Source: Acidobacteriota bacterium (lineage in GTDB: Bacteria > Acidobacteriota > Vicinamibacteria > Vicinamibacterales > UBA2999). From it: a stretch of DNA of 64,000 nucleotides. Of the stretch, positions 51,549-64,000 are shown piece by piece; the stretch's first letter is position 1, and each line of letters begins with the position of its first letter. Under the pieces are notes generated by a model. That model had not been told where the DNA came from and made no database searches. It was given only the letters and a program-made list of their open reading frames with translations. The stretch is from NCBI GenBank assembly GCA_947482665.1, contig CANKJK010000003.1, positions 248,001 to 312,000 of the forward strand. Reading direction: 5' to 3'. Position numbers and translations under genes: made by a program.

Positions 51549-53015
51549 ATGTTCGATAAGTTCCGTGAAGAGTGCGGCGTGTTCGGGATCTTCGGTCACC
51601 CCGAAGCGTCCAACATGACCTACCTCGGCCTCTACGCGCTGCAGCACCGCGGCCAGGAGAGCGCGGGCATCGCCACGAGCGATGGCGTCACCGTGCACAG
51701 CCACAAGGCAATGGGCCATGTGCACGATGCCTTCACCCAGGACACGCTCGCCGTGTTGCCTGGGTCCCTGGCCATCGGCCATGTCCGCTATTCCACGGCC
51801 GGAGAAAGCCGGCTCGCCAACGCGCAGCCGCTCGTCATCGACTGCCTCCACGGTACGCTCGCCCTGGCGCACAACGGCAATCTGGTGAATGCGGGCGAGC
51901 TCCGCGATCAGCTCGTCGGCCAGGGGTCGATTTTTCAGACCTCCACGGACACCGAAGTCATCGTCCACCTGTTCGCCCGCTCGCCAGAGCCGACCGTGGA
52001 GGGCGCCATCATCGAGGCCGTCTCGCAGGTCACCGGTGCGTTCTCGCTGGTGATGATGACGAAGGACAAGATCGTCGGTGTCCGCGACCCGCACGGCTTC
52101 CGGCCGCTGGCCCTGGGCCGCCTCGGAGAGGCGTGGGTACTGGCCTCCGAGACCTGCGCCATGGATCTGATCGGCGCCACCTACATCCGCGACGTCGAGC
52201 CCGGCGAGCTGGTCATCATCAGCGCCCAGGGGCTCCGCTCCGTGAAACCCTTCGCACCCGCGCCCCATGCGCAGTGCGTGTTCGAGCATGTGTACTTCGC
52301 TCGGCCCGACAGCGTAGTTTTCGGCGAGAGCGTGAACGACGTGCGCACGGAGTTGGGCCGGCGCCTTGCGCGGGAGACGGCGGTCGAGGCGGATGTCGTC
52401 GTCCCGATTCCGGACTCGGGCGTGTGCGCCGCGATCGGCTACTCGGAGGCCTCGGGCATTCCGATGCGGATGGGTCTCATCCGCAATCACTATGTCGGCC
52501 GCACGTTCATCGAGCCGCAGCAGTCGATCCGCCACTTCGGTGTGCGCGTGAAGCTGAACCCGGTGCGCAGCATCCTCGAGGGCAAGCGCGTTGTCCTCAT
52601 CGATGACTCGATCGTGCGCGGCACCACGAGCCGCAAACTCGTGAGGATGATCCGCAATGCCGGGGCGAAGGAAGTCCACATGCGCATCAGCTGCCCGCCG
52701 ACGATCTCGCCGTGCTTCTACGGCGTGGACACGCCGCGCCGGCAGGATCTGATCGCGGCGACGCACTCGATCGAAGAGATCCGGAAGTACCTGAGCGCGG
52801 ATAGCGTCGGGTATCTGAGCCTGGACGGCCTGACCAGTTCGGTCCGCGATGGCAAGTCGCGCTACTGCACCTCGTGCTACACGGGCGTGTATCCGGTGGC
52901 GTTCCCGCGCAACGAGGCCGCCTATCTCCAGCTCGCGCTCAAGCTCAACGGCGATGGTTCGCCCGTGCAGCCCGAGCCGGAGCCGGTCACCGACGGCGCG
53001 CCCGCGATCCCCTGA
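51549..53015 (+). CDS. purF: Amidophosphoribosyltransferase
   Basis: The 488-residue enzyme performs the first step of the pathway. The N-terminal cysteine nucleophile is in EECGVFGIFGHPEAS, after an 8-residue propeptide when ATG 51549 is used. Glutaminase motifs LQHRGQESAGIA and VRYSTAGESRLANAQP are followed by the PRPP loop VVLIDDSIVRGTTSRK. Cysteines at QCVFEHVYFARPDS, SPCFYGVD and the late CTSC match the B. subtilis-type enzyme with a 4Fe-4S cluster. A GTG at 51540 is an alternative start. It ends in TGATG with the next gene. Confidence 0.97.
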   Translation: MFDKFREECGVFGIFGHPEASNMTYLGLYALQHRGQESAGIATSDGVTVHSHKAMGHVHDAFTQDTLAVLPGSLAIGHVRYSTAGESRLANAQPLVIDCLHGTLALAHNGNLVNAGELRDQLVGQGSIFQTSTDTEVIVHLFARSPEPTVEGAIIEAVSQVTGAFSLVMMTKDKIVGVRDPHGFRPLALGRLGEAWVLASETCAMDLIGATYIRDVEPGELVIISAQGLRSVKPFAPAPHAQCVFEHVYFARPDSVVFGESVNDVRTELGRRLARETAVEADVVVPIPDSGVCAAIGYSEASGIPMRMGLIRNHYVGRTFIEPQQSIRHFGVRVKLNPVRSILEGKRVVLIDDSIVRGTTSRKLVRMIRNAGAKEVHMRISCPPTISPCFYGVDTPRRQDLIAATHSIEEIRKYLSADSVGYLSLDGLTSSVRDGKSRYCTSCYTGVYPVAFPRNEAAYLQLALKLNGDGSPVQPEPEPVTDGAPAIP

Positions 53016-54226
53016 TGCCAGACGAGTTCCGCGCCGGACGGTGGGCCGCGGCTGCCTGTCTCTGTGGTCTGGCCGTCAGTGGCGCCAGTCCCGCGGTCTT
53101 CGCGGCACAGCCAGGGCAGGAGGCACAGGCGGCACAGACGGCGCCCGCGGTGCCGGCCCCGCTGCTTGTGGCGCACGTGGCCAAACTCGGGGACTTCGAC
53201 TACGCCACGCGGACCGCTGCCGCGCGGGCCGTGCGGCGCGCCCCCGCCACAGAGGCGGCCCCGGCGCTCGTGGCAGCCGTCACGACGAGCGTAGATTCCT
53301 ACGTCCGCTTCAAGGCGTTCGTGCTGTTGACGGGGCTGCTCGATCCGCGGCTGGAGGATTTCTCCCGCGCTGCCCTGACCGATAAGAACGATCGGCTCCG
53401 GCAGGCCGCGTTCGATTGGCTGGAGCGCCACCCGGTGCCCGCGCTGGCGCCGCGGCTCATCCAGTTGCTGGAGACGGAGCAGGCCGAGTTCGTGCGGCCG
53501 TCGCTGATGCGGGCGCTGGCGGCGCTCGACGCCGACCCGGCCGTCCGCACCGCGCTGGTCCGTGAGACGGCGCGCGGTCTCGACATCTTCCGGGGCGCGG
53601 TCATCGAGGCGCTCGGTCTGCGCCGCGCCACCTTCGCGGTGGATGCGCTGGCGAAGGTCGTCGCCGTGGACGGCCCGCTGCGCGATGTGGCAGCGATGGC
53701 GCTGGGCCGCATCGGCGGGTCAGAGGCGGTCGCGCTGCTGGCCCCGGTGCACGACAAGGATCCGGGCGTCGAGCTGACGCTGCGGGCCGCGCAGTGTCTG
53801 GCGGAACAGCAGTGCGATGCCGTCCGCGACGACATTGTCCGGCAGTGGCCGACCTCGGCCGCCAGGGGCACGGCCGGCGCCGCGGCCGGCGCGCTGGCCG
53901 TCATGGCGGAGCGCGGGGATGCCCGTGCCATGGCGCTGCTCGTCGAGGCCGGGATCGCCGGCGTGCGGGATCTGCGGGACCACGCCGCCGTCGCGCTGGG
54001 GACCGTCGCGCTGCGCGCGCCGGATGTGGTGCTGGGGTGGATGGCGGACAATCCGGCACAGGGGAGCGGCGTGCTCGCCCTGCTCAAGGACGGGTTCGAC
54101 CTGATGGAAGAGGATGTGGCCGAAGAGGCCTTCTACGCCTCCGTGCGGGCGTCCTACTGGAAGGCGGCTGATGGATCGCCGGTTCGCGCGTCGGCCGCCG
54201 CGCTCATTGATGGACTCGACTTCTGA
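53015..54226 (+). CDS. Exported HEAT-repeat protein inside the purine operon
   Basis: The 403-residue protein begins with a signal-like segment (GRWAAAACLCGLAVSGASPAVFA, cut near FAAQ), then an Ala/Gln/Pro linker and about nine HEAT/armadillo helical pairs, such as YATRTAAARAVRRAPATEAAPALVAAVTT, LRDVAAMALGRIGGSEAVALLAPVHD and LRDHAAVALGTVALRAPDVVLGW. It shares single-base TGATG overlaps with both purF and purM, so it is translationally tied to them. No purine enzyme is missing at this spot; why an exported repeat protein is embedded here is unclear. It may be a scaffold or stress sensor. Confidence 0.78.
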   Translation: MPDEFRAGRWAAAACLCGLAVSGASPAVFAAQPGQEAQAAQTAPAVPAPLLVAHVAKLGDFDYATRTAAARAVRRAPATEAAPALVAAVTTSVDSYVRFKAFVLLTGLLDPRLEDFSRAALTDKNDRLRQAAFDWLERHPVPALAPRLIQLLETEQAEFVRPSLMRALAALDADPAVRTALVRETARGLDIFRGAVIEALGLRRATFAVDALAKVVAVDGPLRDVAAMALGRIGGSEAVALLAPVHDKDPGVELTLRAAQCLAEQQCDAVRDDIVRQWPTSAARGTAGAAAGALAVMAERGDARAMALLVEAGIAGVRDLRDHAAVALGTVALRAPDVVLGWMADNPAQGSGVLALLKDGFDLMEEDVAEEAFYASVRASYWKAADGSPVRASAAALIDGLDF

Positions 54227-55292: not shown

Positions 55293-55910
55293 GTGAGCCG
55301 CCGCCTCGGTGTCCTGATCTCGGGACGCGGGAGCAACCTTCAGGCGCTCATTCGAGCCATCCAGGAAGGCCGGCTCGACGCGACGATCGCCGTTGTCATC
55401 TCCAACATCGCGGACGCGCCGGGGCTCGCACTGGCCCAGGCCGCAGGAATCGAGACCGTCACGATCAGCCACAAGGGTTGGCCGTCGCGTGCCGACTTCG
55501 ACCGCGAGGTCGCCGGGGCGCTCACCGCGCATCAGGTGGATCTGGTGTGCCTCGCTGGGTTCATGCGCCTGGTGGGTCAGCCGCTCCTTGAGGCATTTCC
55601 CAACCGGATCCTCAATATCCACCCGTCTCTGCTGCCCTCGTTTCCCGGCATCGAGCCGCAACGGCAGGCCCTCGACCACGGCGTGAAGGTCAGCGGCGTG
55701 ACGGTACATCTGGTGACGGCGGACCTGGACGCCGGGCCGATCATCCTGCAACGCCCGGTTCCCGTCGTCGATGGCGACACCCCGGTGACGCTGGCCGCGC
55801 GGATCCTCGAAGAGGAGCACCGGGCGTATCCCGAGGCCGTTCGGCTCGTGCTCGAGGGCGGCTGGCGGATTGAGGGACGCCGGTTCGTGGCTCTGCGCAC
55901 GACCGCCTGA
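55293..55910 (+). CDS. purN: GAR transformylase
   Basis: The 205-residue 10-formyl-THF-dependent enzyme formylates GAR. It begins RRLGVLISGRGSNLQALI (phosphate loop), AVVISNIADAPGL, CLAGFMRLVGQPLL, and the catalytic NIHPSLLPSFPG with HLVTADLDAGPIILQ (catalytic Asp). The GTG at 55293 has GGAGGG 5 nt upstream and fits the family N-terminus; GTG 55263, overlapping the purM stop, would add 10 residues. It is the last pur gene in the operon. Confidence 0.96.
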   Translation: MSRRLGVLISGRGSNLQALIRAIQEGRLDATIAVVISNIADAPGLALAQAAGIETVTISHKGWPSRADFDREVAGALTAHQVDLVCLAGFMRLVGQPLLEAFPNRILNIHPSLLPSFPGIEPQRQALDHGVKVSGVTVHLVTADLDAGPIILQRPVPVVDGDTPVTLAARILEEEHRAYPEAVRLVLEGGWRIEGRRFVALRTTA

Positions 55911-55918
55911 TCTTTTTT
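55881..55918 (+). terminator. Candidate terminator of the pur operon
   Basis: CGGTTCGTG (55881-55889) pairs with CACGACCG (55898-55905) with one bulged T, overlapping the end of purN, and six Ts follow at 55913-55918. The 7-nt gap between stem and T-run is longer than usual, so efficiency is uncertain. Confidence 0.45.
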
Positions 55919-55926
55919 CGACCCCC

Positions 55927-56000
55927 GGTAATACCATCCCGGCGTACGCATCTCCTGACTCCAGATAGGCGGGGAAGTCCCGCTTCGTCAGGAGTCACCT
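55927..56000 (+). promoter_or_regulatory. Two-stem leader RNA with ribosome site in the outer stem (copy A)
   Basis: GGTAATAC at 55927-55934 (also a possible -10) is followed by an outer stem CTCCTGAC/GTCAGGAG (55952-55959, 55987-55994; 8 bp) enclosing an inner hairpin GCGGG/CCCGC (55969-55973, 55979-55983). The outer right arm contains AGGAG, the ribosome site 6 nt before GTG 56001. The folded form should hide it. A similar element with a different outer-stem sequence is at 59750-59803. Confidence 0.6.
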
Positions 56001-58322
56001 GTGCGCACGCCCACCCATTCACGCAAGCTCCACATCCTGCTCGCGGTCCTGCTCGGACTCGCGGCCGTCCATGCTGCCTCGGCCCAGGTGGTCATCGCGC
56101 CCACCGGTGTCTCGCTCCCTGTCGGATCGAGCCGACAGTTCTCCGCCACGGTTTCCGGTGCACCGGCGTCCGGCGCGTCCTGGACGGTCAATGGCCTGCC
56201 CGGGGGTGACTCGACCGTCGGATACATCTCCCCCACGGGCCTCTACTACGCCCCTGCCAAGACGCCAGCCGGCTATGCCGTGACGATTGGCGCCAGCGTG
56301 TCCAACCCGGCCGGCTCGGGGTCGACGACCCTCATCGTGCGCGAACAGATTCCGTGGCTCACCACCATCACGCCGACCACGGTGGCGACCGGCGCCTTCA
56401 GTCTGACGGTGACCGGCAGCCGGTTCGTGAACGGCGCACAGGTCCGCCTGAATGGCGTGCCCGTCCAGACCGCGTATGTGTCGTCCACCCAGCTCACGGC
56501 GACCGGGTCGATCGTGACGCCGGGCACCGTCGCGCTGACAGTGGCCAATCCCGGTCCAGGGGCCGTTTCCACCCCTCTCTCGGTCGTCGTGTCCACGGCG
56601 ACGGTGGTGAGCATTGCACCCACCACGACGACAGTGGATCTCGGGACCTCCACCGCCTTTCAGGCCACCGTCTCCAACGCCTCCGACACGTCGGTGACGT
56701 GGCAGGTCAACGGCAAGATCGGCGGCGGACTGGGCACCGGCACCATCACGCCGGCCGGCATCTACACCGCGCCGGCCATGCTGCCCGTGGGTGGACTCGT
56801 GACCGTCACGGCTGTCGCCAACGCGGACGGCGTGACGAAGGCCTCCGCGAAGGTGCTTCTCAAGGATCCGCAGGCGCTCACCTTCAGTCGCTTCCTCTCG
56901 CAGGCGACCTTCGGGCCCACACCCGCAACCATGGCGCATGCCGAGCAGGTCGGCATGTTGGCGTTCCTCGATGAACAGTTCGCGACCGCCGAATCGCCCA
57001 TCCCTCCAGCGGCCAGCGCGACCCGGCAAAACGTCATCGATGCCTTCATGACCAACATCGTGACGGGCAACGACCAGCTCCGCCAACGCGTGATCTTCGC
57101 GCTGAGCGAGGTCCTGACCATCAGCTTCAACAAGAACACCAACGGCAACGAAGTGTCGCCGTGGCTGCAGATCCTCAGCCGGAACGCCTTCGGCAACTAC
57201 CGGACGCTGCTGCGCGAGTTGAGCACCGACGCCACGATGGGTCACTACCTCGACCTGGTCAACAGCAGCGCCGGCGCCCCTGGGACGCCCAACGCGGCCA
57301 ATGAGAACTACCCGCGCGAGGTCATGCAGCTCTTCTCGATCGGGCTCTACAAGCTCAACCTCGACGGCTCCGTGCAGAAGGACGCCAACGGCCCGATTCC
57401 GAGCTACACGCAGTTCGATGTGCAGCAGCTCGCGAAGGCCATGACCGGCTGGACGTATCCCAACAGCCCGGGGTCGAACGGCACGCCAGGGATGAACGGA
57501 ATGGGCGGCAACTACGCCTACGCCGCCGGAACGATGCTGCCCATGCAGAACCGCCACGACCTGTCGGCGAAGCTCGTGCTCGGGCAGGCCATCCCGGGCG
57601 GGCAATCGGCTCAGCAGGATATGGATGATGCGATCACCATCCTCTTCAATCACCCCAACGTCGGGCCGTTCATCGCCACGCGACTGATCCGGGCGCTGGT
57701 GACGAGCAATCCGAGTCCGGCCTACATCACCCGCGTCGCGACGGTCTTCAACGGCTCGCAGGGCACGCGCGGCGACATGCAGGCGACGATTCGCGCCGTC
57801 CTGATGGACCCGGAGGCCCGCGACGATAACCCGCCGCCCACCTTCGGCCGGCTGCGCACGGCGATTCAGACCATGGCGGCCTTCGTCCGTGCGATGGGCT
57901 ATCCCTTCAGCGGCGGGTCCGGCATGGCCTACCTCTTCGAGGACATGAATGAGGGCCCGCTGAACGCGGCGAGCGTGTTCGGCCACTATTCGCCCTCCTT
58001 CAAGATCCCGAAGTCGCCCCTCTACGGGCCCGAGTTCCAGATCTACGCGCCGAGCGATGCCGCCAACCGGGCGAATCTGCTCTACGGCTATCTCTTCAAC
58101 CCGTGGCCCATCCACCCGCTGCTGCAGCCGTTCGTGGCGCTGGCGGGTGACAGCCTTGCGCTGGTGACGGCTGTCGATAACGCCGTGCTCTTCGGGCGGA
58201 TGTCGCCAGGTCTACGCGCGGCGATCACCGCCGCGCTTCCAGCGATGGGTGACGACTACCAGCGGACGATCACGGCCTTCTATCTGGCGATCGCCACCGG
58301 CGAATTCCAGGTGCAGCGCTGA
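56001..58322 (+). CDS. Exported DUF1800 protein with Ig/IPT-like domains
   Basis: The 773-residue protein has a signal peptide (HILLAVLLGLAAVHAASA), then a Big-like segment (30-115), an IPT/TIG-like domain (116-200: ITPTTVATGAFSLTVTGSRF), another Big-like domain (205-290), and the DUF1800 core (from about 293): FSRFLSQATFGPTPATMAHA, RQRVIFALSEVLTIS, ENYPREVMQLFSIGLYKLN, QQLAKAMTGWTYP. DUF1800 genes are commonly paired with DUF1501 genes, as here. They are thought to act outside the cytoplasm, but the reaction is unknown. The GTG start at 56001 is preceded by AGGAG, held in the leader stem. Confidence 0.9.
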   Translation: MRTPTHSRKLHILLAVLLGLAAVHAASAQVVIAPTGVSLPVGSSRQFSATVSGAPASGASWTVNGLPGGDSTVGYISPTGLYYAPAKTPAGYAVTIGASVSNPAGSGSTTLIVREQIPWLTTITPTTVATGAFSLTVTGSRFVNGAQVRLNGVPVQTAYVSSTQLTATGSIVTPGTVALTVANPGPGAVSTPLSVVVSTATVVSIAPTTTTVDLGTSTAFQATVSNASDTSVTWQVNGKIGGGLGTGTITPAGIYTAPAMLPVGGLVTVTAVANADGVTKASAKVLLKDPQALTFSRFLSQATFGPTPATMAHAEQVGMLAFLDEQFATAESPIPPAASATRQNVIDAFMTNIVTGNDQLRQRVIFALSEVLTISFNKNTNGNEVSPWLQILSRNAFGNYRTLLRELSTDATMGHYLDLVNSSAGAPGTPNAANENYPREVMQLFSIGLYKLNLDGSVQKDANGPIPSYTQFDVQQLAKAMTGWTYPNSPGSNGTPGMNGMGGNYAYAAGTMLPMQNRHDLSAKLVLGQAIPGGQSAQQDMDDAITILFNHPNVGPFIATRLIRALVTSNPSPAYITRVATVFNGSQGTRGDMQATIRAVLMDPEARDDNPPPTFGRLRTAIQTMAAFVRAMGYPFSGGSGMAYLFEDMNEGPLNAASVFGHYSPSFKIPKSPLYGPEFQIYAPSDAANRANLLYGYLFNPWPIHPLLQPFVALAGDSLALVTAVDNAVLFGRMSPGLRAAITAALPAMGDDYQRTITAFYLAIATGEFQVQR

Positions 58323-58351
58323 CCGCGCTTTCAGGGATCAGGAGACAGGTG

Positions 58352-59713
58352 ATGACGCATCGGCATGGACGGTCCAGGCGGGAATTCCTGCAGCTGGGCG
58401 CGGCAGCAGGCATGGTGGCAGGACTCGGGCGCTACTCAACGCTCTCGGCGGCATCGGACTACAAGGCCGTCGTCTGCGTGTTCCTGCTCGGCGGCAACGA
58501 CGGGCACAACATGGTCGTGCCGCTGGGCGGGCCGGAGTACGCGGCGTATCAGGCCGCACGGGGTGGTCTGGCGCTCGCGGCGGGGCAGCTCCCGCCGATC
58601 GCTGACCCCGTGCAGGGGCAGTTCGGTTTCCACTACGCGATGCCCGAAGTGGCGGCGCTCTACAACCAGGGCCGGCTTGGCGTCGTGAGCAATGTCGGCA
58701 TGCTGGTCCAGCCGACGTCCTATTTCGATCTCAGCAATCCGGCGCACCCGCTCCCCTCGCAGCTGCGGTCGCACTCCGACCAGGTGGCGGAGATGATGAG
58801 CGGCGTGCCCGACACCAGCGGCGCCAATGGCTGGGGCGGGCGCATGCTCGACGCCCTCCAGACCGCGAACGCAGGGACGTCTTTCCCGGTCTCCATTGCC
58901 ATGAACAGCCCCGCGCTCTTCTGCGCGGGCAAGTTCGTGCAGGGCGCGAGCGTGCGGCCCGGGAATGCCATGGACCAGACCTTCCTCGGCATCTATCCTC
59001 CGGGGGCCGCCGCGGCGCGCCGGACCGCGCTCCAGCAGGTCGTCGCCGCTGACAGCGGAAGCCATCTCATCAATGCGGCCAATGCCTCGATGGGCACGGC
59101 GCTCGCGCTGAATCCGATGCTGCGTCAGGCTGCGGCCACCGTGCAGTTCACGAAGAAGTTTCCGCAGACCACACTCGGGCGCCAGCTTGAGGAGGTGGCG
59201 CGCATCATCAATCTGCGCGGCCAGCTCGGCGTCAGCCGGCAGGTCTTCTACTGCAGCCTCGGTGGCTTCGACACGCACGGCGGCCAGTCCTACCAGCAGA
59301 TGGCACTGCTCACCGAGGTGAGCCAGGCGTTCGACGCCTTCTACAAGGCGACCGAGCAGTTGAATGTGCCGGATGCGGTGACGACGTTCACCCTCTCGGA
59401 CTTCGGCCGGACGCTGCAGCCGAGCGGCACGGGCTCCGACCACGGATGGGGCAACCACCAGCTGGTGATGGGTGGCGCCGTCAACGGCGGCCGGATCTAC
59501 GGAACGTTCCCGAAGGCCACCAACTACGCAAACCTGAACGCGACCCACGACGACTACGCCGATGCGCGCGGCACGATGCTGCCGAACATCTCGTTGGCGC
59601 AGTACGGGGCGACGATCGCGAACTGGTTCGGGGCCACCGCCGATGCCGAACTTGACGACATCTGTCCTCCGCTCGTGAACTTCGCCGTCAGGAACCTCGG
59701 CTTCATGGCGTGA
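58352..59713 (+). CDS. Tat-exported DUF1501 protein
   Basis: The 453-residue protein begins with a twin-arginine signal (RSRREFLQLGAAAGMVAG), then DUF1501: VVCVFLLGGNDGHNMVVPL, FGFHYAMPEVAALYNQGRLGVVSNVG, LRSHSDQVAEMMSG, VFYCSLGGFDTHGGQSYQQMALL, FTLSDFGRTLQPSGTGSDHGWGNHQLVMGG. The DFGRT and GSDHGWG blocks resemble the alkaline phosphatase/sulfatase-like fold, suggesting a metal-bound hydrolase. The ATG at 58352 has GGAG 7 nt upstream; it lies 29 nt after the DUF1800 gene, so the pair form one transcript. Confidence 0.93.
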   Translation: MTHRHGRSRREFLQLGAAAGMVAGLGRYSTLSAASDYKAVVCVFLLGGNDGHNMVVPLGGPEYAAYQAARGGLALAAGQLPPIADPVQGQFGFHYAMPEVAALYNQGRLGVVSNVGMLVQPTSYFDLSNPAHPLPSQLRSHSDQVAEMMSGVPDTSGANGWGGRMLDALQTANAGTSFPVSIAMNSPALFCAGKFVQGASVRPGNAMDQTFLGIYPPGAAAARRTALQQVVAADSGSHLINAANASMGTALALNPMLRQAAATVQFTKKFPQTTLGRQLEEVARIINLRGQLGVSRQVFYCSLGGFDTHGGQSYQQMALLTEVSQAFDAFYKATEQLNVPDAVTTFTLSDFGRTLQPSGTGSDHGWGNHQLVMGGAVNGGRIYGTFPKATNYANLNATHDDYADARGTMLPNISLAQYGATIANWFGATADAELDDICPPLVNFAVRNLGFMA

Positions 59714-59749
59714 CCCACCGCATCCGGAGCACTCGTGGCACCGGCCTTC

Positions 59750-59803
59750 GGTAACATGGCCCTCGCAGTTGCGCGGGGAGTCCCGCCCGCCTGCGAGTCT
59801 TCC
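59750..59803 (+). promoter_or_regulatory. Two-stem leader RNA with ribosome site in the outer stem (copy B)
   Basis: GGTAACA at 59750-59756 is followed by an outer stem CTCGCAG/CTGCGAG (59762-59768, 59791-59797; 7 bp) around an inner hairpin GCGGG/CCCGC (59773-59777, 59782-59786) with a GAGT loop. The right arm ends in GAG, 6 nt before ATG 59804. The inner hairpin is almost the same as copy A, while the outer stems differ in sequence yet still pair, which argues for a conserved structure. ATG codons at 59735-59756 upstream would put the stems inside a coding region and are less likely starts. Confidence 0.6.
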
Positions 59804-60856
59804 ATGGGTGGTTCCGTCTCCGAGCGGCAGGATCCTGAGGTTCGGGCCTTCTGCATGGCGCATCCCGACGACGCTGATGCCCGTCTGCGGCTGCTGGCGG
59901 AGCGTGCCTCGACGGTGGTGGCCGGGGTTGTCGGCCGCCGCCTGCGCGAGACGCGTGATCGGCAGGAGACGGAGGACATCCGCCACGACGTGCTCCTGCG
60001 CCTGATGTGTCGGCTCAGGCGTGAGCGGGAAGCGCCTGGAGAGGAGCCCATCGTGGACCTGCTCTCCTATGCCGCGGTGATGGCCGAGCATGCCTGCTAT
60101 GCCTATCTGCGGCGTCGTCATCCGGGTCGGGCGCGGCTCAAGAATCGCATCCGCTACATCCTTCTGCGTCAGCCGGAGTTTCGTCTGAGTGGCGGCGACG
60201 GCGGGCGCCTGATTGCGTCCCGCGCCGCGTGGCCCGCCTCGGAGGCGCTCTCCGGTACCGAGCGGGCGAAGGCAATGCATGTGGCCGGTGCGTCGGCGCG
60301 CGTGGCGGCGCTGGAGGGGCGCGATCCGTCGAGTGTCACGCTGCCGGTGCTCGTCGAGGCGGTGCTGCGCGAGTGTCGCGGAGGCATGGAGGTCGACGAC
60401 CTTGTCTCGGCCGTGGCGGCCGTGCTCGGCGTCGACGATGGTCCCGAGGACGAACGCGTCGGCTTCGGCATGGCCACCGAGCCGCTGCCTGATCGGCTCG
60501 TGGACCGGGCGCGCATGATTCCCGAACTGCTCGGGGATCGGGAGTATCTGGCCGCGGCGTGGGCAGAGATTCAGACGCTGCCGCTGCGGCAGCGGGTCGC
60601 GCTGCTGCTCAATCTGCGGGACGCGGACGGGCGCGACCTGACGTCGCTGATGCCGCTGCTCGGCGTGGCGACCTTCGAGCAGATGGCGGCGTGTCTGGAA
60701 ATGTCGGCCGCGGCGCTGGCTGCGGTGTGGGCCGAATTGCCGATTGACGATCTCCGTCTGGCGGACCGGCTCGGCGTCAGCCGCCAGCAGGTGATCAATT
60801 TGCGGAAGTCCGCGCGCGAGCGTTTGGCGCGGCGTCTCCGGCGGTGGTCGTCGTGA
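59804..60856 (+). CDS. Sigma-70-like factor, divergent
   Basis: The 350-residue protein has sigma region 2-like helices near the N-terminus (RQETEDIRHDVLLRLMCRLRRER) and a C-terminal region 4-like helix-turn-helix (IDDLRLADRLGVSRQQVINLRKSARERLARRL). The ~140 residues between them (110-290) are longer than in an ECF sigma factor, with several helical stretches (LTVLVEAVLRECRGGMEVDDLV, RQRVALLLNLRDADGRDL). It most resembles the sigma-like proteins paired with zf-HC2 anti-sigma factors in large-genome bacteria. The ATG at 59804 is preferred, placing the leader stems in the untranslated region. Its stop overlaps a GTG of the anti-sigma gene. Confidence 0.8.
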   Translation: MGGSVSERQDPEVRAFCMAHPDDADARLRLLAERASTVVAGVVGRRLRETRDRQETEDIRHDVLLRLMCRLRREREAPGEEPIVDLLSYAAVMAEHACYAYLRRRHPGRARLKNRIRYILLRQPEFRLSGGDGGRLIASRAAWPASEALSGTERAKAMHVAGASARVAALEGRDPSSVTLPVLVEAVLRECRGGMEVDDLVSAVAAVLGVDDGPEDERVGFGMATEPLPDRLVDRARMIPELLGDREYLAAAWAEIQTLPLRQRVALLLNLRDADGRDLTSLMPLLGVATFEQMAACLEMSAAALAAVWAELPIDDLRLADRLGVSRQQVINLRKSARERLARRLRRWSS

Positions 60857-60870
60857 GGCAGGATGAAGGG

Positions 60871-62133
60871 ATGGCCGGGATGGGTGCAGACGATCACCAT
60901 CTGACGGATGAGGTGTTGCGCGGCTACGCCAGCGGGACGCTGGAGGTGTCGGCCCTGGCGGAGGCGTTGCAGCACGTGGGCCACTGCGAGGCGTGCCGCG
61001 AGGCGCTGGCACGCGCGGCCGGTGCGGCGGAGCGCGTGAAGGGGGCCTGGGCCCTGGGCGCCGCCGAGCCTGAGGTGCACCCCGATCCAGAAGCACTGAT
61101 GGCACTGGCTGACGGGATGCTCGACCACGCCAGCGCGCTGACGCTGCGCGCCCACATGGCGGTGTGTGACACCTGCGCCGAAGACCTGGCGGATTTTGAA
61201 GCTGCCCGGGGGGAGCTGCACTCCTCCGCTCGTGCGATGTCCGCTGAGCTTCCGGCTGAGAAAGCGACCTCGCCCGTGCTCACGTCCCCCTGGCTGCGCC
61301 TGGCTGCAGCGGCCGTGCTCGCTACGGTGACCGGCGGCGTGTGGTGGATGAACCGCCTGGCGGGGACGATGCCGAGCGACCAGCTCGCGCGAACGTCCGC
61401 CGCGCCCGCGCCTCAGTCCCCCTCTGGCGGCGACACCCCAGCCGTCGTGCTGACCGACGGTGTGGTGTCGCTGCTGGCAGACGGGGCCGTGCGCGGGCTC
61501 GACCTTCTGGAGGCCCCGGACCGTGCGGTGGTTGAAGGCCTGCTGCATGATCAACGCCTGCCGTCGCGTCCGCCCGATCCGGCACTGCGGCCGCCGCAGG
61601 GCGCGCTGATGGGTGCCCCCGCTGCGCCGGCGCGGCTCCGGCTGCTCACGCCCATCGGCGTCATCGTGGCCAGCGACCGCCCCACGCTGACCTGGACCGC
61701 CGTGCCTGGAGCGACGGCGTATCGGGTGTCGCTCTACGACGCGCGCCTGGTGCCGCAGGCTGAGAGCGGCGATCTCACGCGCGCTGAGTGGACGCCGCCG
61801 GCCCCGCTGGTGCGTGGCGCGCTGTACCTCTGGCAGGTGGAAGCAGACACACAGGCCGGTACACTCCGGGCCCCCGGCGCCGATGCGCCGGACGCGCGCT
61901 TCCGCGTGCTCTCCGCGGCTGACGCGGCCTCGCTGCGCGCGCTGGAGCAGGCGTCTCCGGCGTCGCCACTCCTGCTGGGTGCCCGCTATGCCGCGCTCGG
62001 TCTACGCGAGGACGCCGCGCGGCAGTTCGAGGTGCTGGCCGCGGCGAATCCGGCCTCGCCGTTGGCCGCCGCGCTCGCGCGCGAGGCGCGCGCTCAGGTC
62101 CCGTCGCCGACGAGGACGAACGGCGCCCAGTAG
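60871..62133 (+). CDS. Membrane anti-sigma factor with two zinc fingers and periplasmic domains
   Basis: The 420-residue protein has two HxxxCxxC zinc-finger motifs: HVGHCEAC (residues about 28-35) and HMAVCDTC (near 90), the zf-HC2 pattern that grips sigma factors. One membrane helix follows (LRLAAAAVLATVTGGVWWM, near 140-160). Outside the membrane is an FnIII-like segment (SDRPTLTWTAVPGATAYRVSLYD, residues 265-350) and a TPR-like helical end (LLLGARYAALGLREDAARQFEVLA). ATG 60871 has AGG 8 nt upstream; GTG 60853, overlapping the sigma stop (GTGA), is an alternative. Its 3' end overlaps the convergent CHAT gene by 40 nt. Confidence 0.82.
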   Translation: MAGMGADDHHLTDEVLRGYASGTLEVSALAEALQHVGHCEACREALARAAGAAERVKGAWALGAAEPEVHPDPEALMALADGMLDHASALTLRAHMAVCDTCAEDLADFEAARGELHSSARAMSAELPAEKATSPVLTSPWLRLAAAAVLATVTGGVWWMNRLAGTMPSDQLARTSAAPAPQSPSGGDTPAVVLTDGVVSLLADGAVRGLDLLEAPDRAVVEGLLHDQRLPSRPPDPALRPPQGALMGAPAAPARLRLLTPIGVIVASDRPTLTWTAVPGATAYRVSLYDARLVPQAESGDLTRAEWTPPAPLVRGALYLWQVEADTQAGTLRAPGADAPDARFRVLSAADAASLRALEQASPASPLLLGARYAALGLREDAARQFEVLAAANPASPLAAALAREARAQVPSPTRTNGAQ

Positions 62134-64000
62134 AAGGGATGGGCGTAGGTGCCGCCGTGCAGTAACTGCATCGCGGCGGCGCGCAGCGCGTCAGCGCGGC
62201 CGGCCACGTGTCCGGTCTTGAGCACGCTGTCGCGGATACGGCGGTGGAAGGCCATCATGAATTCGGTGGTGCTCACGGAGTCGACCTGCCACTCTGAGAC
62301 CACGGCGCTCCCGGCGCCGGCGGCCAGCACCGCCCACGTCAGCCCAATGAGACCCTCGCCTTCCCTCACGCGTCCGCGGCCCGAATCACAGGCCGACAAC
62401 ACCACGAGGTCAGACCCGAGGCGCAGCTCCAGCATCCGCGCGGCATCCAGCACCGGCAATTCGCCATCGGCACCGGCAGCGCCAAGCTGCACGTAGGACC
62501 GCATGGGATTGCCGCCGTCGAACACCCCGTGCGCGGCCACGTGGAGGATCCGTGCAGAGCCGCCATCACGGACTGTCTGTGGCGTGGCTCTGGCGCCGAC
62601 CACCAGTTGCCCGCGCCGACCGTAGAGCGCGGCGACGCTGCGCGCCTGCTGTTCCGCCTCCTTCAGCGGCGCGTCGGTCGCGCCGCCTCCGGCACTGCCG
62701 ATGATCAGCGCATCCGTGCCGCGAGGCGCTCGGCTCTTCCCGCGCTCCATGAGCGCGGCGAGCGCATGCACAGAGGGCGCGAAGGTCACCGCGACGTCTT
62801 CGATGAGATAGCGGCCCGTCGGACTCATGAGCGCCTGAAAGGGGAGTTCCCAGAGGGGGCCGTCAGGCACGATGGTCCAGTGCTGCGCTCCCGCCAGAGC
62901 AGGGGCCAACGGTGCGATCAGGGCGTTGTAGAGATCGCGGGCGGACTGCGCGATGGCGAGATCGCGCGTCGCGAGCTGTTCGCGGAACCGCGTGGTGCGG
63001 CGCGCCAGTTCCGCATGGGTCACCGGGAGTCGGATCGCCGTGACGGTGGTCCGGCCGCGGTCGTCGCGCCGTGCCACGAACGCCGAGGTATTCGTACCGG
63101 CGACGGCGAACGACACCACGGCGTGCGCAGGGGTCACCAACAACGGAGCCAGATTCACGGGGCCGGTCGATCGGACAAGGTCCCCGCTCGCATCCGGAGC
63201 GTCCTGGCCCGCCTGCGCGGATTCGAGCAGCTCGATGAGCGTCCTGGCCTTGGCACGCTCAGACGTGGCCAGCGCCTCGTCCGCACGGCCTGATTCCACG
63301 AGCAGGTCCACCAGTTCGCGGTAAGGATCCAGCCGCATCGCCAGGACTTGTTGCCGCTCGCGTGCTTCATCGCTCGCGGTCGCGCGCACGTCCTCCACGG
63401 CAGCGATGGCGTCGGTATAGGCGGCAATCGCCTCCGCCCGGTGGCCCAGCGCACGCTCGGCCTCCCCGAGCCTGGCCGATGCCCGCCAGCGCAGGTCGAG
63501 GCCTCCGATGGTGCGCGCCAGCGCCCCGGCCTCCAGGGCCCGCTGTTTCGCTTCCTCGGGTTGCTTGAGGTCCAGAAGGATGCGGACGATCAGGTTGAGC
63601 GAGTCGACCTGCCCGTGCGGGTTGCCGATGGCTGCACGCACCGCGAGGGCTCGACGCGCGGTGGCCAGCGCCGCCTCGGAATGTCCCTGCAGCCACTCAA
63701 GCTCCGCAATGCCAAAGAGCACCAGGCCGATGCTGCGCTGTTCGCCCGCAGCCTCGACGGCTGTCAGGGCCGCCTCGAACTGCGCACGCGCTTCGGCCCA
63801 CTGCTCCAAGCGCATGTGGTTCTGGGCGAGTCCGATCCGCACCGATGCACGCGAGCTGAGGTCGCGGTCGCCGCCGGGGACCGCCAGCGCGCGCTGCCAG
63901 TAATCCAGCGCCAGATCGACGTCACCGCGCAGTTCATGAATCGAGGCGATGTTCCCGAGTGTCGTGACGACATCGACACCCTCCATCTGCAGCGCCGCCT
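62094..64000 (-). CDS. TPR-CHAT caspase-like protein (5' end beyond the window)
   Basis: At least 635 residues are visible; the frame stays open to the window edge, so the N-terminus is missing. The visible N-terminal part holds tetratricopeptide-like helix pairs (ASIHELRGDVDLALDYWQRAL and others). The C-terminal CHAT domain has the caspase-type dyad: His in LHVAAHGVFDGG (codon 62529-62531) and Cys in VVLSACDSGRG (codon 62388-62390). Between them is SYVQLGAAGADGELPVLDAARMLELRLG, and it ends YAHPFYWAPFVLVGDG, the family's WAPFVLxG. CHAT proteins are separase/caspase-like proteases in some defence and cell-death systems. It is convergent with the sigma/anti-sigma pair, overlapping by 40 nt. Confidence 0.9.
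   Translation of the reverse strand, partial: AALQMEGVDVVTTLGNIASIHELRGDVDLALDYWQRALAVPGGDRDLSSRASVRIGLAQNHMRLEQWAEARAQFEAALTAVEAAGEQRSIGLVLFGIAELEWLQGHSEAALATARRALAVRAAIGNPHGQVDSLNLIVRILLDLKQPEEAKQRALEAGALARTIGGLDLRWRASARLGEAERALGHRAEAIAAYTDAIAAVEDVRATASDEARERQQVLAMRLDPYRELVDLLVESGRADEALATSERAKARTLIELLESAQAGQDAPDASGDLVRSTGPVNLAPLLVTPAHAVVSFAVAGTNTSAFVARRDDRGRTTVTAIRLPVTHAELARRTTRFREQLATRDLAIAQSARDLYNALIAPLAPALAGAQHWTIVPDGPLWELPFQALMSPTGRYLIEDVAVTFAPSVHALAALMERGKSRAPRGTDALIIGSAGGGATDAPLKEAEQQARSVAALYGRRGQLVVGARATPQTVRDGGSARILHVAAHGVFDGGNPMRSYVQLGAAGADGELPVLDAARMLELRLGSDLVVLSACDSGRGRVREGEGLIGLTWAVLAAGAGSAVVSEWQVDSVSTTEFMMAFHRRIRDSVLKTGHVAGRADALRAAAMQLLHGGTYAHPFYWAPFVLVGDGT

Follow-up and report, generated by a model that had tools for sequence, protein, structure and literature searches.

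Introduction

The CRISPR-linked CHAT protease Csx29 cleaves an inhibitor of an extracytoplasmic function (ECF) sigma factor and thereby relieves the sigma factor (PMC10028731). CHAT-domain proteins are also conserved next to the sigma gene in the ECF54 group, which is described as working without an anti-sigma factor (PMC8999054), and a 2016 paper reports the two domains DUF1800 and DUF1501 together in a predicted operon, in the neighbourhood of chitin synthase genes of bacteria, DUF1501 bearing a twin-arginine translocation (Tat) motif (PMC5122149). Here we analyse a stretch of 64,000 nucleotides from an Acidobacteriota genome (the window; C3:248001-312000 of a 3.53 Mb draft) in which a DUF1800-DUF1501 gene pair lies directly upstream of genes for a sigma factor, a zinc-finger anti-sigma factor and a convergent TPR-CHAT protease, and we describe a candidate promoter at position 55927 that probably places the pair under the control of this sigma factor.

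The locus resembles the Craspase arrangement (Csx29-Csx30-CASP-sigma) in that a TPR-CHAT protease, an inhibitor and an ECF sigma factor are encoded together; it differs in that the CHAT protein here looks exported and the inhibitor is a zinc-finger anti-sigma factor, mostly with a membrane-like segment (PMC10028731). There was no CRISPR part among the annotated genes of the locus, no search aimed at CRISPR having been made. A sigma-alignment scan of named genomes yielded 56 sigma loci, mostly Acidobacteriota by record title. An anti-sigma gene is present in 48 of the 56, in contrast to the ECF54 description, and the CHAT neighbour, matched within the fetched stretch in 32 of the 56 (one match being weak), is common to both (PMC8999054). 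At L139, which comes from a cultured Terriglobus albidus strain, the fetched stretch showed the sigma and anti-sigma genes only. Compared with the chitin-synthase-associated operon, the two domains and the Tat motif are the same, but the pair here stands next to a sigma locus (PMC5122149). Among open-licence papers on CHAT with anti-sigma or ECF factors and on DUF1501 or DUF1800, we found no account of this set. The RpoE-RseA type of E. coli shares with the locus adjacent sigma and zinc-finger anti-sigma genes, a two-part promoter near its own genes and exported targets, whereas the sigma factor here scores weakly in region 2 and carries a long insert, and a CHAT protease gene belongs to the locus.

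A candidate sigma-family promoter precedes the DUF1800-DUF1501 operon

On comparative sequence evidence, the sigma gene that lies just behind the DUF1800-DUF1501 operon probably encodes the regulator of this operon, acting at a DNA promoter. The features concerned are:

55927-55958, + strand: predicted ECF-type promoter with a -35 element GGTAATAC (55927-55934), a 14-base spacer and a -10 element CATCTCC (55949-55955), recognised by matrix rank, strict pattern and intergenic position.
56001-58322, + strand: DUF1800 protein with a Sec-like signal, an Ig-like (TIG/CoaZ) N-terminal part and the DUF1800 domain at residues 297-771 (PF08811, 267 bits; PF01833; NF058597, the NCBIfam 'CoaZ' repeat).
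58349-59713, + strand: DUF1501 protein with a twin-arginine signal and a predicted fold of the alkaline phosphatase superfamily (PF07394, 123 bits; alignment; model, Z 17.5 to an NPP-type phosphodiesterase).
59804-60856, + strand: sigma factor (ATG at 59804, in-frame GTG at 59735) with a weak region 2, a long insert and a C-terminal region-4-like part (TIGR02937, PF04542, family alignment).

The word GGTAATA recurs next to sigma homologues. Among 50 sigma/anti-sigma gaps (out of 48 loci, the L133 gap being counted twice), GGTAAT occurs on the coding strand in 31 and on the opposite strand in 1, where Markov resamples lead one to expect 1.4 per 50 gaps and windows elsewhere in these loci 2.5; L090 and L139, both among the 31, have the word solely within the sigma coding sequence. 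In its strict form the two-part element is found in 10 of the 50 gaps, with 0 of 50 in the comparison. Of 32 GGTAAT sites, 11 have CRTC at an offset of 22, and no other offset tested has it more than once; a C fills column 23 in 26 of the sites and column 26 in 30. This fixed, gap-free spacing points to a two-part promoter, and the distance from GGTAAT to CRTC is that of ECF promoters, with a geometry like that of sigma-E promoters. The 10-mer CGGTAATACC, tried as a genome-wide element, gave 56 matches in 31 genomes against 31 for the reversed word, and most of the 30 contexts inspected fall, on our reading, within long open frames. We rejected this word on its own; the second half of the promoter is required.

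The site at 55927 is intergenic, with the DUF1800 start 74 bases further on. A matrix trained on 25 sites, left after removal of GGTAAT words in coding sequence and of 11 loci that corresponded to genomes sampled from the window's order, ranks it first among 127,938 window positions (15.4; runner-up 11.0). Because unsampled members of that order may have been left in this set, we retrained the matrix on 19 sites, drawn only from records titled as groups other than the window's order, and 55927 was again first among the 127,938 positions (15.5; runner-up 10.7). Across the window's own genome, the strict pattern GGTAATAY-N13-15-CRTC has one match, which is the 55927 site, and the reversed pattern also has one. 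In the same genome the sigma-family alignment has one strong hit and a second, weak one (20 bits), and the genome's single clear sigma factor of this family adjoins the single strict promoter match.

These searches bear on the possibility that the promoter is real but serves chiefly some other ECF sigma factor of the same cell. The promoter choice of ECF sigma factors can overlap, as is generally known, and the sigma search of the own genome was made with this family's alignment only; against such a reader, the element tracks the loci of this very sigma family in many genera, and only one further, weak match accompanied the adjoining gene. We consider a different ECF reader unlikely and favour the adjoining sigma factor.

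Other genes of the sigma loci scanned also have promoter-like sites before them. Ten were picked by hand out of 17 with such sites, a choice that favours long frames; eight of the ten have Pfam matches, the domains including collagen, beta-propeller, RHS, OMP barrel and CARDB, and most of the products start, judged by eye, like exported proteins. In two distant genomes (L205:10761-11354 and L119:7954-8460), such promoters stand before a gene for a small exported protein that has an AFNPQPDPPG motif and no Pfam match.

Linkage of the pair to the sigma locus among relatives

In the window DUF1800 and DUF1501 are 26 bases apart on the + strand, with the sigma gene next, and the gene next after DUF1800 is DUF1501 in all 18 of the related loci whose contig is long enough; at L042, L195 and L203 the contig ends before the DUF1501 position, and these stand outside the count. 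The two genes are indeed a pair, as the earlier note had claimed, and the pair itself is common and ordinary. The own genome holds a second, distant DUF1800 gene (L001, G000:C3:29763-31187) with a DUF1501-like gene behind it.

DUF1800 of this type is found in 16 of 43 family genomes (E values to 1e-60). In all three genomes in which the pair adjoins the sigma locus (in G127 as joined across a contig break) the promoter lies before DUF1800, and none was found in that place in the 13 others of the family. On these grounds we predict that the neighbouring sigma factor controls the pair in this lineage specifically. At one linked locus (L205, genome G123) two promoters (10539 and 10680) point towards an operon that runs divergently from the sigma gene and encodes a small exported protein together with DUF1800 and DUF1501. 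At the other (L204, genome G127) two promoters (2655 and 2785) face an exported-protein gene cut by the contig end; its product aligns with the N-terminal part of DUF1800 from G123 (59% over 86 residues), and a DUF1800 fragment at the end of another G127 contig is sister to that of G123 (support 100/99). The window copy branches apart from the G123/G127 pair in the DUF1800 tree, so the link would either be old and often lost, or have arisen twice. L205 (G123:C109) also carries two sigma/anti-sigma/CHAT sets in tandem.

Several observations weigh against control of the pair by its sigma neighbour. The earlier note had named separation and different regulation of the two loci in most relatives as evidence that would tell against their link, and linkage is not general: a sigma gene stands beside the pair in 3 of the 16 family genomes with DUF1800, that of G127 being joined across a contig break without overlap, and the remaining 13 have no sigma gene beside the pair in the fetched stretch. 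The pair is seen at 1 of the 56 named sigma loci (stretches up to 6 kb). Homologous loci are related, so the locus counts are not independent. The 15.4 score of 55927 is lower than that of 23 of the 25 training sites; one coding-frame site elsewhere in the own genome scores 16.3, and the matrix is therefore not unique genome-wide. The looser two-part pattern has four matches in this genome against 14 for the reversed pattern, which is no enrichment. Finally, the sigma/anti-sigma promoter that is present in many relatives was not found in the window.

Five of the 13 genomes without the link (G046, G088, G116, G137 and G139) carry a sigma homologue on another contig, and the other eight have none among the matches listed; short contigs (L193, L195, L197 and L203) limit this unlinked comparison. 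The promoter matrix gave no score above 10.3 at any position of 18 unlinked loci, and the best score near the DUF1800 start is 6.3 (17 unlinked loci with upstream sequence). A regular expression for the sigma-54 consensus gave seven matches in 270,871 bases (22 sources, both strands; a raw count without control). Six of the seven lie at a DUF1800 operon start (L034, L036, L198, L200, L202 and L203); in L034 and L198 the site falls within the longest open frame, ahead of the probable DUF1800 start. Control may therefore have switched in these six relatives, and the pattern is suggestive of a rewiring of operon control where the sigma link is absent.

The same data could mean that the pair adjoins the sigma locus by chance and that another promoter drives it, as the rarity of the link and the six sigma-54-like sites would allow. 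Yet the promoter is correctly placed and oriented in every linked genome, its distribution over linked and other family genomes has a chance of 1 in 560 if genomes are independent, and a sigma-70-type scan of 55800-62200 found no promoter of that type. Mere neighbourhood seems improbable to us, and we retain the adjoining sigma factor as the predicted regulator.

Hairpins ahead of the DUF1800 and sigma genes

The earlier note had proposed a common class of leader RNA before DUF1800 and the sigma gene. The two 5' regions are:

55957-55998, + strand: predicted hairpin of a short 5' untranslated region, which would cover the AGGAG Shine-Dalgarno sequence (fold z; putative function).
59750-59803, + strand: 5' region of the sigma gene with a GGTAACAT word and a hairpin, a poor promoter match (fold z -1.8 over 51 bases, -2.4 over 90 bases).

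A shared structured leader (riboswitch, thermometer or attenuator) that sets both operons would account for the near-identical 15-base hairpin and the GGTAAYA word common to the two regions. It would also fit the folding of the DUF1800 leader, which is better than that of shuffles (z -2.8 for a transcript from about 55957 and -4.4 for a longer stretch), with a stem over the Shine-Dalgarno sequence. The similarity of the two regions, which had been chosen for their likeness, is equalled by 0.7% of GC-matched random window pairs, and that of the hairpin parts by 0.2%. Against a leader RNA, Rfam returned no family at gathering score, and a lax threshold gave one chance-level row (E 0.95) near one leader and none near the other. 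Compared with the DUF1800-start region of 18 relatives, the window hairpin behaved like shuffles in 17 (shuffle share 0.24-1.0) and was borderline in L203 (0.045). There was no excess RNA structure after the promoter in relatives (mean z -0.01; 35 rows, L133 twice) and no excess of hairpin-core words within the window, and the conserved part is ungapped DNA of fixed spacing. The copy ahead of the sigma gene, at 59750, fits the promoter poorly (-0.9, rank 161, with the 25-site matrix; 1.9, rank 77, with the 19-site matrix). After alignments of the two leaders, Rfam, folding, local-alignment statistics and the hairpin comparison with relatives, we rejected the shared leader RNA, to which we give very little credence, and keep the DNA promoter in its place. 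A stable hairpin at 59762-59799, ahead of the sigma ATG and without a T run, was not reported by the terminator scan.

Predicted products of the pair

Both export routes and the enzyme fold claimed in the earlier note agree with our analysis. In DUF1501 the twin-arginine motif is kept in the alignment, which supports delivery by Tat, and structural comparison of a predicted model supports a phosphatase/sulfatase-type fold. The model (predicted local distance difference test, pLDDT, 73.6; predicted template-modelling score 0.80) has as its best neighbours NPP-type phosphodiesterases, choline sulfatase and alkaline phosphatases (top Z 17.5 over 246 residues, root mean square deviation 3.9); Foldseek gave an E value of 2.4e-05, yet a template-modelling score of only about 0.3. 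A sequence search of the PDB returned nothing for DUF1501. Residues S141-H142, D308-x-H310 and D364-H365 are invariant in the alignment, and the Asp/His pairs would fit a metal site. The protein is like the alkaline phosphatase / NPP / sulfatase superfamily in predicted fold and conserved Asp/His motifs, at about 10% identity. We propose that Tat would deliver DUF1501 in folded form and that the protein would act outside the cytoplasm as a metal-dependent enzyme of the phosphatase/sulfatase type.

For DUF1800, Sec export is read from a Sec-like N-terminus and the Ig-like domains from the TIG/CoaZ matches. Its model is weak (pLDDT 65.4) with a mostly helical domain, the best PDB structural match having an E value of 0.09, and a sequence search of the PDB gave two chance-level rows only; we assign it no fold. 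DUF1800 may be a Sec-exported, Ig-anchored partner of DUF1501, perhaps on a surface polymer.

The sigma/anti-sigma/CHAT set and a model for its control

The genes of the region run purF, a HEAT-repeat gene, purM, purN, DUF1800, DUF1501, sigma, zinc-finger anti-sigma and the convergent TPR-CHAT gene; the HEAT-repeat protein gene (52874-54226) has purF on one side and purM on the other. Beyond the sigma gene lie:

60844-62133, + strand: anti-sigma factor with two HxxxCxxC motifs, a weak hydrophobic segment around residue 145 and a large C-terminal part (PF13490 at cut-off; TIGR02451 partial, below cut-off).
62094-63986, - strand: convergent TPR-CHAT protease (PF12770, 205 bits), the open frame continuing beyond the window to about 64826 (full frame 910 aa).

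The sigma factor scores 26.7 bits with TIGR02937 (cut-off 42.9) and 18.4 with PF04542 (cut-off 24), and its C-terminal motif is conserved in the family alignment. HxxxCxxC is present in 46 of the 48 anti-sigma factors, at 44 and 104 in that of the window, and a membrane-like segment in 45 of the 48. An N-terminal hydrophobic stretch is found in 25 of 27 CHAT proteins. With L127 left out of the 27 rows, all 26 aligned proteins retain both residues of the catalytic dyad, His and Cys, and the dyad is intact in the window's protein. The TPR-CHAT protease of the locus is probably exported.

A single long transcript from DUF1800 to the anti-sigma gene fits the scans of 55800-62200. According to our model, the sigma factor, once freed from the zinc-finger anti-sigma factor, would transcribe DUF1800-DUF1501, and transcription would probably continue through the sigma and anti-sigma genes, giving auto-activation and feedback. 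We propose this read-through because that terminator scan found no + strand terminator and no second such promoter was found downstream. In a weaker step, the probably exported TPR-CHAT protease would sense the state of the envelope and cut the anti-sigma factor, releasing the sigma factor. We infer this cleavage from the position of an exported-looking protease next to a membrane anti-sigma factor; the best hydrophobic window of the window's own anti-sigma factor reaches 1.42 where the threshold is 1.6, which counts against it.

The earlier note had the pair and the sigma/anti-sigma/CHAT genes answering to one signal. For the pair and the sigma/anti-sigma genes this is supported, since the predicted promoter of the pair matches the sigma family's own element; a leader RNA as the means is not. 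More broadly, and as a tentative idea that we hold to be possible rather than probable, an exported caspase-like TPR-CHAT protein may across Acidobacteriota be the first protease to cut a membrane anti-sigma factor, freeing a sigma factor that reads surface-protein genes through a promoter code of its own, and in the window's family this circuit may have captured DUF1800-DUF1501.

DUF1800 and DUF1501 are widespread and usually paired, with no known function, and their predicted tie to a sigma factor and a defined promoter makes the inducing condition testable. The recurrent sigma/anti-sigma/CHAT set, with its readable promoter code, would allow the regulon to be listed genome by genome, and the set is a possible cellular counterpart of the CRISPR-linked CHAT/sigma pathway. 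If the proposed role of the CHAT protease is true, the widespread DUF1800-DUF1501 pair would gain a defined signal route.

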